DNA of 64,000 nucleotides. Origin: Halpernia frigidisoli. GTDB taxonomy: Bacteria > Bacteroidota > Bacteroidia > Flavobacteriales > Weeksellaceae. Shown piece by piece: positions 38,017 through 56,070 of this stretch. Position 1 is the stretch's first letter; every line of letters starts with the position of its first letter. The DNA lies in the NCBI RefSeq assembly GCF_900113805.1, contig NZ_FOQT01000003.1, positions 186,001 to 250,000 on the forward strand, in the 5' to 3' direction. Below the pieces are notes generated by a model, which was given only the letters and a program-made list of their open reading frames with translations, was not told where the DNA came from and did not search any database. A program made the position numbers and the translations under genes.

Positions 38017-40509
38017 ATGAAACTAAAAAACTACATCCACGGCGAGTGGATCGAAGGCAATTCTGAAGGAACAAAATTATACAATTCCGTCAGCGGCGAG
38101 CAAGTTGCAATTGCTGACACTTCAGGTTTAAATTTAGCCGACGCTTTAAATTACGGTCGCGATTTAGGTTATAAAAATTTGTCTTCAATGACATTTTATG
38201 ACCGCGGACAAATGCTAAAAAATCTTGCGCTTTATTTATTGGAACGTAAGAAAAAATACTACGACATTTCCTACAAAACTGGCGCAACCCACGCAGATTC
38301 TTGGGTGGACATTGAAGGTGGTTTTGGAACTTTTTTCACTTATTCAGGTTTAGCAAAAAAAATGTTGCCAAATACACCATTTTGGGTTGATGGCGATACA
38401 CAGAAATTATCTGCAAACGGAACTTTGCTTGGAACTCATATTTTAACGCCAAGCGAAGGGATTTCGGTTCAAATTAACGCTTATAATTTCCCGGTTTGGG
38501 GAATGCTTGAAAAACTGTCAACCTCCCTTTTAGCCGGTGTTCCAAGTTTGGTAAAACCAGCAACACCGACAAGTTACCTCTCGCACGCCGTTTTTGAAGA
38601 TATGATCGAAAGTGGCATTTTACCGGAAGGCGCAATCCAACTAATTTGCGGAAGCGCCGGAAATTTATTGGAAAATATGCAAGACGGCGATTCTGTTTTA
38701 TTCACAGGTTCTGCTTCTACGGGGAAAAAATTAAAATCCATGCCGTCCATTTCTAAAAATGCAGTGCGATTTAATATGGAAGCAGATTCTCTCAATTGTT
38801 CAATTTTAGGATTAGATGCAAAACCGGGAACACCGGAATTTGACCTATTCATAAAAGAAGTTCGCAACGAAATGACGACAAAAGCCGGACAAAAATGTAC
38901 GGCAATCCGAAGAATAATCGTTCCGGAAAATTTAATCGGTGACGTTAAAAATTCTTTAACTAAATCTTTAGATCAAGTCAAAATTGGAAATCCTTTAAGC
39001 CGTGAAACAAGAATGGGCGCACTGGCGGGAAAGGACCAATACAAAGAAGTTTTAGAAAAAATAGAATTATTAAAAACTGAAACAGAATTAATTTACGACG
39101 GCAAACAAGATTTAATAGACGCTGATTATGAAAACGGCGCTTTTATGTCGCCAAAATTATTCTTAAATGACTCGCCTTTTACCAAAAACATTTCACATAA
39201 TGTAGAAGCATTCGGTCCGGTTTCTACTTTAATGCCTTACAAAGATGCAGATGAAGCCGCTGCTTTAGCAAAACGCGGAAAAGGAAGTTTGGTTGGTTCA
39301 ATAATTTCTCACGACAACGATTTTATCGCAAAAACTGCCTGGAAAATGGGAACAACGCACGGAAGAATTTATGTTTTAAACCGTGATAATGCAAAAGAAA
39401 GTACAGGTCACGGTTCACCATTACCAACAATGATGCACGGCGGACCCGGAAGAGCAGGCGGCGGTGAAGAAATGGGCGGATTAAATGGACTTCACTTTTT
39501 CTTACAAAAAACGGCGATTCAGGGATCGCCGGATGTTTTGACTGCAATTACAAAAATCTACCAAACTGGTGCTGAGAAAAAATATGCAGATCTTCATCCT
39601 TTTCAAAAATTCTTTGAAGATGTTGAGATTGGTGATGCTTTAGAAACTGCCGGAAGAACCGTGACAGAAGCAGACATTGTCAATTTTGGAAATGTTTCCT
39701 GGGATCATTTTTACGCGCACACCGATGCGACAAGTTTAACGGGAACTATTTTTGACAAAACCGTGGCGCACGGTTACTTTATACTTTCCGCGGCTGCAGG
39801 TTTATTTGTTTCCGGGAAAAAAGGACCTGTCATTGCAAATTATGGTTTGGAAAACTGTAGTTTTTTCAAACCGGTTTATGCCGGCGACACAATCACGGTT
39901 TATTTAACTGCAAAAGAAAAAGTGAATAAAGGCGTTAAAGGCAGAAATATTCCTTCCGGTGTTGTAAAATGGTTAGTGGAAGTTATTAATCAAAGAGATG
40001 AAGTAGTTTGTGTGGCGACAATTTTAACTTTAGTAGCGAAAAAATCTGTTTTTATTCCATTGAAAATTGTTGATGTTAAAAATGCTTTAGATAAATTAAC
40101 TGAATCAACAGAAAAATCATTTGGTGAAATGACGCCACAATTAATGGTGGAACATTTAGAAGACGTGACTAAAAATGGTTTTGGGAATTTGAAAGCTGAA
40201 GATTTTAAAGAAATCCCAGCGGAAAAATTAGAATTGTTGCAAGATTGGTTATATTCAAACGACAAGATAAAACCTGGCGCCAAATACCCGCTTTTGAAAG
40301 AAGGTGAAACAATGCAGCCAAAGTATAAAAATTTAGAGGAAGCCAAAGAAAACTTACTTTCAACATTAAAAGAATATTTGGTTTTTTACAAAGAAAATCC
40401 TAAAATTGAAGTTTATCATCCAAGATTTGGACTTTTAAATAAGGAAATGCAGGAACTTTTTCAACGGAAACACTTTATGCATCATTTTGAGCAATTTGGA
40501 TTGATATAA
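38017..40509 (+). CDS. paaZ: Bifunctional PaaZ (aldehyde dehydrogenase / oxepin-CoA hydrolase) with an extra C-terminal domain
   Basis: Opens the oxepin-CoA ring and oxidises the resulting semialdehyde in aerobic phenylacetate breakdown. Residues 1-520 form the aldehyde dehydrogenase with catalytic Cys294 in GQKCTAIRR. Residues 535-680 form the MaoC-type hydratase with SWDHFYAHTD (Asp563, His568). The family normally ends here (about 680 residues). About 150 further residues follow, containing EMTPQLMVEHLEDV and ending HPRFGLLNKEMQELFQRKHF and MHHFEQFG, which resembles a DUF1569/DinB-like helical bundle with conserved histidines. The other paa genes are not in the window; an enoyl-CoA hydratase gene follows after a repeat-flanked cassette. 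Confidence 0.92.
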   Translation: MKLKNYIHGEWIEGNSEGTKLYNSVSGEQVAIADTSGLNLADALNYGRDLGYKNLSSMTFYDRGQMLKNLALYLLERKKKYYDISYKTGATHADSWVDIEGGFGTFFTYSGLAKKMLPNTPFWVDGDTQKLSANGTLLGTHILTPSEGISVQINAYNFPVWGMLEKLSTSLLAGVPSLVKPATPTSYLSHAVFEDMIESGILPEGAIQLICGSAGNLLENMQDGDSVLFTGSASTGKKLKSMPSISKNAVRFNMEADSLNCSILGLDAKPGTPEFDLFIKEVRNEMTTKAGQKCTAIRRIIVPENLIGDVKNSLTKSLDQVKIGNPLSRETRMGALAGKDQYKEVLEKIELLKTETELIYDGKQDLIDADYENGAFMSPKLFLNDSPFTKNISHNVEAFGPVSTLMPYKDADEAAALAKRGKGSLVGSIISHDNDFIAKTAWKMGTTHGRIYVLNRDNAKESTGHGSPLPTMMHGGPGRAGGGEEMGGLNGLHFFLQKTAIQGSPDVLTAITKIYQTGAEKKYADLHPFQKFFEDVEIGDALETAGRTVTEADIVNFGNVSWDHFYAHTDATSLTGTIFDKTVAHGYFILSAAAGLFVSGKKGPVIANYGLENCSFFKPVYAGDTITVYLTAKEKVNKGVKGRNIPSGVVKWLVEVINQRDEVVCVATILTLVAKKSVFIPLKIVDVKNALDKLTESTEKSFGEMTPQLMVEHLEDVTKNGFGNLKAEDFKEIPAEKLELLQDWLYSNDKIKPGAKYPLLKEGETMQPKYKNLEEAKENLLSTLKEYLVFYKENPKIEVYHPRFGLLNKEMQELFQRKHFMHHFEQFGLI

Positions 40510-40512
40510 TTT

Positions 40513-40546
40513 GCGCACAGATTTTCACAGATGTGCACAGATTCAT
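40513..40546. repeat. Left arm of the GxxExxY cassette
   Basis: CGCACAGATTTTCACAGAT and then GTGCACAGATTCAT, built from CACAGATT units, starting 3 bp after the paaZ stop codon. It matches the right-hand array at 40956-41026 in both inverted and direct orientation. Confidence 0.85.
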
Positions 40547-40576
40547 TCGTTTTAAATATTGAAAAATCTTAAGATT

Positions 40577-40957
40577 ATGACTGAAAACGAAATCACTTAC
40601 TCAATTAGAAAATCAATTTTTGAAGTTTACAATACACTTTGCTCAGGATTACTAGAAAGCGTTTACGAAAAAGCGATGGTGATTGAACTTGAAAACCGAG
40701 GCTTAGTTGTAAATGTACAACTACCGATTTCAGTAAACTATAAAGGCGTAGATTTAGGTTTAGGATTTCGTACTGTTATTATAGTAGAAGAAAAAATTAT
40801 AATTGAAATAAAATCTGTTGTAGATTTGGCGCCAATTCATCACAAGCAATTGCTAAATTACTTAAAGTTAACAAATTTACATTTGGGTATTTTGGTAAAT
40901 TTTAATACTAACGATATTACTGGAAGTATCGTGAGAATTATCAATGGATATAAATAA
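40577..40957 (+). CDS. GxxExxY protein (PD-(D/E)XK-like)
   Basis: 126 residues from ATG 40577 (an in-frame TTG at 40559 would add 6). The name-giving motif is GLLESVYEKAM (G-x-x-E-x-x-Y). The segment VEEKIIIEIKSVVDLAPIHH then KQLLNYLK fits the E-x-K core and helix of the PD-(D/E)XK nuclease superfamily to which the family is assigned. Nuclease activity is not shown for this family. The gene is bounded on both sides by CACAGATT-type repeats and separates paaZ from an enoyl-CoA hydratase gene, consistent with insertion as a cassette. Confidence 0.9.
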   Translation: MTENEITYSIRKSIFEVYNTLCSGLLESVYEKAMVIELENRGLVVNVQLPISVNYKGVDLGLGFRTVIIVEEKIIIEIKSVVDLAPIHHKQLLNYLKLTNLHLGILVNFNTNDITGSIVRIINGYK

Positions 40958-41026
40958 TCTGTGAAAATCCGTGAAAATCTGTGCGTAAATATCCTCACAG
41001 ATTTTCACAGATGCACACAGATTTAA
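40956..41026. repeat. Right palindromic array of the GxxExxY cassette
   Basis: First part (40956-40985), AATCTGTGAAAATCCGTGAA to CTGTGCG, is the inverse of the left arm with one mismatch in 19. Second part (40993-41026), TCACAGATTTTCACAGATGC then ACACAGATTTAAT, is a near-identical direct copy of the left arm. The two parts form a long palindrome. It begins at the stop codon of the GxxExxY gene. Confidence 0.85.
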
Positions 41027-41066: not shown

Positions 41067-41834
41067 ATGACAGACGAATTTGTAATATCAGAAATAGAAA
41101 ATAATATTTCAACCATCACTTTTGGAACGCCGAAAAGCAATGCTTTACCGGGAAAAATTTTAGAATTATTAGCAAAAACAATTTTAGAAGAAGGTTCCAA
41201 AAAAAAAGTTAAAGCCATTTTATTAAAATCCGCGGGCGAAAAATCCTTTTGTGGCGGTGCAAGTTTCGATGAATTATTAGAAATAGAAGACCTTGAAACT
41301 TCAAAAAAATTCTTTGGCGGTTTTGCAAAAGTTTTGAACGCTATGCGTACTTGTGGTAAAATTGTCATTGTAAGAGTTCAGGGAAAAACTACCGGCGGTG
41401 GTGTTGGAATTGCTTGCGCAGCAGATTATTGTTTTGCAACAAAAAATTCTGCCTTGGCTTTAACGGAACTTAATTTAGGAATCGGGCCTTTCGTTATCGG
41501 ACCTTTTGTGGAAAGAAAAATCGGGATTTCTGCTTTTTCTGCAATGGCAATTGATGCTGATTTTAGAAGTGCGGAATGGTGTGAAAATAATAACATTTAT
41601 AATTCTGTGTCTGAAGATATAAAAGAAATGGATTTAAAAATTGAAGAATTTTTAGCAAAATTAAGCGGAAGAACTTCGGAAGCATTGGCTTTAATAAAGA
41701 AAGTAAGTTGGGAAAATTCTGCAAATTTTGAAAAATTAATGCCGGAAAGAATTGAAATGAGTGCAAGATTAATTTTGGAAGATTCCGCCAAAGAAAATAT
41801 TGCAAAAATCAAGGAAAGACTAAAAGCAAAATAA
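41067..41834 (+). CDS. Enoyl-CoA hydratase/isomerase family protein
   Basis: Crotonase-fold protein of 255 residues. The oxyanion-hole regions are KSFCGGASFDELLEI and VQGKTTGGGVGIACAADYCF; ALTELNLGIGPFVIGP follows, which carries the usual second catalytic acidic residue (E in TELNLGI). Position after paaZ suggests a role in phenylacetate or related acyl-CoA breakdown, but substrate is not readable from the sequence. Confidence 0.88.
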   Translation: MTDEFVISEIENNISTITFGTPKSNALPGKILELLAKTILEEGSKKKVKAILLKSAGEKSFCGGASFDELLEIEDLETSKKFFGGFAKVLNAMRTCGKIVIVRVQGKTTGGGVGIACAADYCFATKNSALALTELNLGIGPFVIGPFVERKIGISAFSAMAIDADFRSAEWCENNNIYNSVSEDIKEMDLKIEEFLAKLSGRTSEALALIKKVSWENSANFEKLMPERIEMSARLILEDSAKENIAKIKERLKAK

Positions 41835-55631: not shown

Positions 55632-55666
55632 GATAATTGATAATTGATAATTGATAATTGATAATT
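55632..55666. repeat. Heptamer tandem array (GATAATT x5)
   Basis: Five perfect head-to-tail GATAATT units just before the four-helix-bundle gene. Inverse-oriented, less regular copies (ATCAATTATCATTAATC) follow that gene at 56036-56058, so the gene sits between inverted arms. Confidence 0.9.
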
Positions 55667-55671
55667 AAAAA

Positions 55672-56034
55672 ATGGAAAATAATTTTAACCAAATAATTGC
55701 AGACCGAACAAAATTATTGACCGTAAAAATTATTAATAATTTTTCAAACTTACCTTACTCAGATAAAGTTTCGGTAATTAGAAAACAATTATTTAGATGT
55801 TCGAGTTCAGTTGCTGCAAATTATAGAGCAATGTGTAGAGCAAGATCGCTAAAAGAAAAATATGCTAAAATTTGTATTGTTGTCGAAGAAGCGGACGAAA
55901 CAGTTTTTTGGCTTGAAGTAACAGAAGAAATAAATATGATATCGCGCGAAATATTAAAAGAATTAAAAAATGAAGCAATGGAAATTTTAAAAATAACCGC
56001 TGCTTACAAGAAAAAGTTAGGCGAAGGACTGTAA
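55672..56034 (+). CDS. Four helix bundle protein (S23/IVS-type)
   Basis: 120 residues of the family also found inside intervening sequences of 23S rRNA genes. Typical signature SDKVSVIRKQLFRCSSSVAA followed by NYRAMCRARSLKEKYAKICI and VVEEADETVFWLEV. All-helical, no catalytic motif; molecular role unknown. It interrupts the murE-mraY junction and is flanked by inverted AT-rich repeats, so I read it as an inserted cassette in the dcw cluster. Confidence 0.92.
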   Translation: MENNFNQIIADRTKLLTVKIINNFSNLPYSDKVSVIRKQLFRCSSSVAANYRAMCRARSLKEKYAKICIVVEEADETVFWLEVTEEINMISREILKELKNEAMEILKITAAYKKKLGEGL

Positions 56035-56035
56035 T

Positions 56036-56058
56036 CAATCATCAATTATCATTAATCA
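56036..56058. repeat. Right arm of the four-helix-bundle cassette
   Basis: AATCATCAATTATCATTAATC region directly after the stop codon. Its reverse complement contains GATAATTGATGATTGATT, matching the GATAATT units of the left array. Confidence 0.7.
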
Positions 56059-56070
56059 CTTATAGTAACT

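Follow-up and report, generated by a model that had tools for sequence, protein, structure and literature searches.

A GxxExxY gene between phased inverted repeats as a candidate repeat-associated gene class with a PD-(D/E)XK-type protein

Within the 64,000-nt stretch of DNA that was analysed, positions 186001-250000 of contig C5 (the window), a GxxExxY gene is enclosed by inverted arms built of CACAGAT units. The probability that this feature represents a widespread, undescribed class of repeat-associated genes, similar to REPIN/RAYT systems and run by a PD-(D/E)XK enzyme, is put at roughly 55%. GxxExxY proteins form a large family that is named only after its motif. The link to phased inverted repeats gives them a candidate substrate and a testable function, and at the same time would explain a family of common intergenic repeats. 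Gene-maintained repeat populations in prokaryotes have been described as known only for REPINs (PMC8049555), and a second type of enzyme would be added to them if this reading is true.

The gene has paaZ as its upstream and an enoyl-CoA hydratase family gene as its downstream neighbour (Table 1). As had been noticed in the sequence, the left arm, GCGCACAGATTTTCACAGATGTGCACAGATT, begins at 40513, 3 bp past the paaZ stop codon (TAA, 40507-40509), and the right array begins at the GxxExxY stop codon, which it overlaps (from 40956). The array holds one inverted copy of the left arm (40956-40990; 89% complementary over 35 nt, with one mismatch in the 17-nt core) and one direct copy (40988-41023; 86% match over 36 nt). 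Right arm and direct copy together are predicted to form a 68-nt hairpin (DNA fold of −18.5 kcal/mol; z −7.7), for which a search of Rfam returned chance miRNA matches only. The outer direct copy, for which a role as target site had been suggested, is better read as one half of this head-to-head hairpin, a kind that also occurs gene-free (L188-L190). The three-unit pattern was found four times in the 3.02-Mb genome, three of these at the GxxExxY locus, and the reversed control was found nowhere. Neither cas genes nor a recombination partner adjoin the gene in the window.

Table 1. Positions in the window of the GxxExxY element, its neighbours and the IVP gene with its arms
Feature	Position	Strand	Remarks
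paaZ (bifunctional ring-opening enzyme)	38017..40509	+	TIGR02278, 862.7 bits; upstream neighbour, outside the element
Left arm	40513..40543	+	GCG plus three ~10-bp-phased CACAGAT units, directed toward the gene
GxxExxY ORF, 126 aa, start ATG	40577..40957	+	TIGR04256, 129.9 bits (cut-off 35); PF13366, 126.1 bits (cut-off 22)
Right arm	40956..40986	-	Inverted copy of left arm; overlaps the GxxExxY stop codon
Direct copy of left arm	40994..41023	+	Pairs with right arm in the 68-nt hairpin
Enoyl-CoA hydratase family gene	41067..41834	+	PF00378; downstream neighbour, outside the element
IVP/S23p gene	55672-56034		PF05635, 49.4 bits; an mraY-like gene follows immediately downstream
Arms of the IVP gene	about 55636-55668 and 56035-56060		TTGATAA-type repeats

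Each locus was scored by its best ungapped inverted match from one 200-bp flank to the other, with a threshold of at least 14. The GxxExxY gene of the window scored 23, compared with a median of 9.5 among 51 ORFs of the window. Among 106 GxxExxY loci, which are not fully independent of one another, 69 reached the threshold (median 16.75) and 37 had no clear arms at it; after weighting by clusters of 70% identity, arms were present in 36 of 53. In contrast, none of 96 control windows located 350-550 bp away reached 14 (Mann-Whitney p 1e-24), nor did any of 315 shuffled flank pairs. Only three of 105 flank pairs of ordinary ORFs did so, and these were the GxxExxY gene itself, an IVP gene and a paaZ gene beside GxxExxY arms (L048). 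Homologues that generally lack repeat flanks would have spoken against the original prediction; about two thirds of all homologues surveyed have arms, and the survey strongly supports gene and arms as one package. The observation of the gene with its arms is confirmed as real, while the interpretation first given to it is partly supported.

The arms extend beyond Bacteroidota to Gemmatimonadota (with perfect 32-bp arms), Verrucomicrobiota, Cloacimonadota and Gammaproteobacteria. Across the loci, the sequences show a unit period of 9-10 bp (z 5.1 and 6.5) and a preferred orientation, with the left arm directed inward in 45 cases and outward in seven. Arm sequence varies by clade, and its similarity covaries with that of the protein (Mantel r 0.35, p 0.001), also for pairs whose proteins share less than 60% identity (r 0.28, p 0.001) or less than 50% (r 0.10, p 0.028). 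Whether left and right arms evolve in concert was assessed against same-side orthologues, a comparison in which adjoining coding DNA inflates the same-side scores. The host genome itself carries five PF13366 genes, and CACAGAT arms are found only at the copy in the window. The other four have arms of their own sequence, namely ...CTCGCAGATTTTGCTGATGACGCAGATT at L003 (score 35.5), ACACGAAGGCACAGAGG at L001 (score 27) and weaker ones at L002 and L005.

Gene-free copies of the repeat also keep company with the gene. In 99 genomes (39 with GxxExxY and 60 without; these are related genomes, and the counts are raw and uncorrected for phylogeny), at least two CACAGAT pairs per genome were present in 15 of the 39 and in none of the 60 (p 1e-7), and the matches totalled 304 and 4, respectively. 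For CACAGAG pairs, the corresponding counts were 7 of the 39 and none of the 60, and for CGCAGAT pairs 10 of the 39 and one of the 60. The single exception (G035) carries its CGCAGAT copy just after paaZ; since GxxExxY occupies the same site in its congener G052, that copy looks like a remnant of a GxxExxY element. Within-genus contrasts agree (G035 versus G052 and G005, G038 versus G010 and G055, G046 versus G024). The host genome holds gene-free CACAGAT pairs at about six further intergenic places, and in two congeneric genomes 11 gene-free copies were examined, every one of them intergenic. At one site of G000, its counterpart G001 instead carries another palindrome, which contains a GTAGGAAT motif, and at a second site it has an amplified mixed array. 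Arrays of repeat hairpins, which are a local amplification, were seen at G030:C4:46074-48518 (period of ~180 bp) and L193 (~134 bp), where CACAGAT units are intermingled with CGCAGAT units.

The enclosed protein matches both family models over their full length (Table 1), its closest named homologues being from Kaistella, Halpernia and Chryseobacterium. PF13366 is the sole Pfam family in it, and no HUH/Y1 enzyme is present. The AF2 model (pLDDT 94.5, pTM 0.87) was closest, in a Foldseek search of the PDB, to Cas4 SSO0001, LHK-Exo and lambda exonuclease (probability 0.99-1.0, with E-values not below 0.001); viral PD-(D/E)XK nucleases and, weakly, I-Bth0305I were also matched. From the model, a minimal RecB/Cas4-type PD-(D/E)XK fold is confidently predicted. 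The family shares with Cas4, RecB and lambda exonuclease the fold core and the D...ExK...QxxxY residues, but unlike those nucleases consists of a 126-aa core only. Its alignment shows a conserved active site, with D67 in 104 of 106 members, K79 in all 106 and E77 (as E or D) in 105, and E77 and K79 are intact in each of the 69 repeat-flanked members, where their frequent mutation would have argued against the original prediction.

For the copy in the window, G24, E27, Y30, E77, K79, Q91 and Y95 are kept. The PD-(D/E)XK residues originally proposed are there as far as E77-x-K79 is concerned, but the catalytic Asp is missing, position 67 being V (codon GTT), so that a protein with E27, E77 and K79 but V67 falls short of the residue set of a catalytically competent enzyme, D...(E/D)xK with a helix Glu. 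Because of D67V, the nuclease of this copy is probably inactive, and the copy is probably no more than a relic, or else it relies on another of the GxxExxY proteins in the genome. That the one gene among the five with CACAGAT arms is probably dead speaks against the main reading, as do the 37 loci without clear arms. PADLOC defence models gave no match to GxxExxY up to an E-value of 1. The open literature (subscription journals and preprints not covered) yielded nothing on a function of, or repeats at, GxxExxY, PF13366 or TIGR04256; no prior description of a GxxExxY-repeat or IVP-repeat link was found there, and one cannot be excluded.

RAYT genes are flanked by their own repeats, are long-lived, chromosomal and rarely on plasmids, and their carriers hold more repeats (PMC8266576, PMC8049555). 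The GxxExxY gene resembles them in each of these respects, as it is flanked by the same palindromic repeats that are dispersed between genes and more numerous in genomes with the gene, and it is itself long-lived, chromosomal and rare on plasmids. However, its enzyme is of PD-(D/E)XK rather than HUH/Y1 (TnpA-REP) type, its arms lack the GTAG of the GTAG/CGTC tag, and its repeats are three units spaced by 9-10 bp instead of a short tagged palindrome. Moreover, copy numbers are in the tens, not hundreds, and several different GxxExxY genes share a genome. As enzyme class and tag both fail, the element is not a REPIN/RAYT member. We infer binding, cleavage, copying and movement. Most likely the element works in the manner of a REPIN/RAYT system: the GxxExxY protein would recognise its own phased units, perhaps folded into the hairpin or from one side of the duplex, and would cut at them, and repair would then copy or keep the repeats. 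A mostly immobile chromosomal gene might thereby maintain a small population of non-autonomous repeats.

The history of the paaZ site bears on whether the element moves. GxxExxY orthologues that are 72-81% identical follow paaZ in about a dozen Weeksellaceae, while other relatives have empty paaZ junctions, where intergenic DNA is too diverged for the exact junctions to be aligned. The original prediction of a split gene pair holds in that paaZ-hydratase junctions without GxxExxY exist in relatives (L084, L093 and L097), but most close relatives also have a uracil-DNA glycosylase (UDG) gene between GxxExxY and the hydratase gene. Nor was the split recent; the insertion is old and common to a whole clade. 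Where dS is measurable (many values are saturated), omega is about 0.06-0.19, which shows purifying selection on the gene; decaying copies also exist, with a stop codon in L049 and a frame break in L066.

The first alternative, which we consider unlikely, is a small element with terminal inverted repeats (TIRs) that moves as a unit in the manner of a transposon or homing endonuclease, whereby an empty site is cut, repair copies arms plus gene, and the gene-free copies are internal deletions like MITEs. The arms would serve as the terminal repeats, and the L187 pairs look like outer arms minus the gene; PD-(D/E)XK homing enzymes do exist (I-Bth0305I, the weak match of the fold search), and unrelated loci carry proteins that share 70-87% identity, in one case both in the same genome (L125/L139 of G036, 85.6%). 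In MITEs and TIR-bearing IS, inverted terminal arms and gene-free derivatives are likewise found; in contrast to them, the GxxExxY element has no transposase, no target-site duplication was found and its gene is mostly syntenic. Most close pairs are syntenic, too, and the paaZ copy is common to a dozen species. A homing signal was sought in the conflict between gene tree and paaZ tree, yet that conflict failed to reach significance (AU p of 0.13 for the own-genus clade and 0.054 for the whole topology), and vertical descent is not rejected. The genes are mostly chromosomal and seldom found on plasmids, in 4 of 72,556 records, and neither phages nor viral contigs matched the one peptide pattern from the alignment that was used as query. 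Among the loci compared, with intergenic DNA too diverged to align, the search turned up neither a base-exact empty site nor a target duplication nor a recent transposition, which counts against the main reading as well; paralogues and close homologues included no near-identical copies at different sites. Recent transposition was rejected also for L125/L139, whose similarity stops at or near the gene ends; their arms and flanks have therefore already diverged.

It is less probable still that the arms are regulatory, with the phased units as an operator for GxxExxY or a host factor, or the hairpins as terminators or mRNA stabilisers, and with no mobility at all. A spacing of one helical turn fits a DNA-binding array, the copies sit at gene ends, the hairpins are stable, and REPs have been reported as terminators and mRNA stabilisers (discussed in PMC8049555). 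However, such roles leave unexplained why left and right arms match each other around one gene family in several phyla, why gene-free sites differ between two congeneric species through turnover, and why gene-less genomes are nearly devoid of the repeats.

We regard as quite improbable a selfish element at the RNA level, whose arms would pair in the transcript so that RNase III removes the insert and insertion into an operon becomes tolerable. The Coxiella intervening sequence (IVS) has this very plan, being a 428-nt insert in which terminal inverted repeats of ~28 bp enclose a small ORF and which RNase III excises (PMC4990558). Like a 23S rRNA IVS with its IVP/S23p ORF, the GxxExxY element has a small ORF in ~30-bp inverted repeats and measures about 450-500 nt overall (PMC4990558), and its insertions lie between co-directional genes (paaZ and hydratase; fabD and fabG in Sphingomonas); IVP genes that lie outside rRNA likewise possess phased arms. 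Unlike that IVS, it lies outside rRNA and encodes an unrelated protein family. Excision from RNA would need neither phasing nor protein covariation nor dispersed gene-free copies, and it leaves the conserved nuclease active site unexplained. Mere coincidence, that is, a gene located by chance in an intergenic spot rich in repeats, of the kind also used by other genomic repeats (RAYT REPs), is highly improbable and is rejected by the controls (0/96 windows, 0/315 shuffles, ordinary ORFs and gene-less genomes).

The IVP gene of the window (Table 1) offers a parallel. At IVP loci of relatives, inverted arms were found in 20 of 30 cases, compared with none of 30 controls, and they follow a strict 7-bp period as against 9-10 bp in GxxExxY arms. 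Because IVP, an unrelated non-nuclease family, shares the layout of gene and arms, this layout needs no nuclease, and a nuclease-only reading of it is weakened. The difference in repeat period (one helical turn versus seven bases) gives a direct handle on recognition. Tentatively, and at somewhat less than even odds, GxxExxY proteins with arms of 9-10 bp and IVP four-helix-bundle proteins with arms of 7 bp may constitute at least two further gene-plus-repeat classes besides RAYT/REPIN, each reading its own period, and may jointly stand behind many of the unexplained short repeats that are dispersed in Bacteroidota and other phyla (CACAGAT, CGCAGAG and TTAGAAG types).

Several further loci deserve mention. 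In three relatives, a Y1_Tnp (RAYT-type) gene follows paaZ instead (L077:2572-3033, L092:748-1209 and L096:2685-3146), with GTTCC-TAGGAAC-like (REP-like) palindromes visible at the L077 and L092 genes; the site after paaZ seems prone to repeat-associated genes. GxxExxY also occurs between core genes in unrelated phyla, between fabD and fabG in Sphingomonas parapaucimobilis (L181), where there is a single phased arm-like stretch only, and directly after radA in Bacteroides finegoldii (L180). At L173 (G052:C1:2048600-2051400), GxxExxY is followed by about five tandem units of 211 bp, each composed of a right arm, a fragment resembling the 3′ end of GxxExxY and the first part of the adjacent UDG gene.
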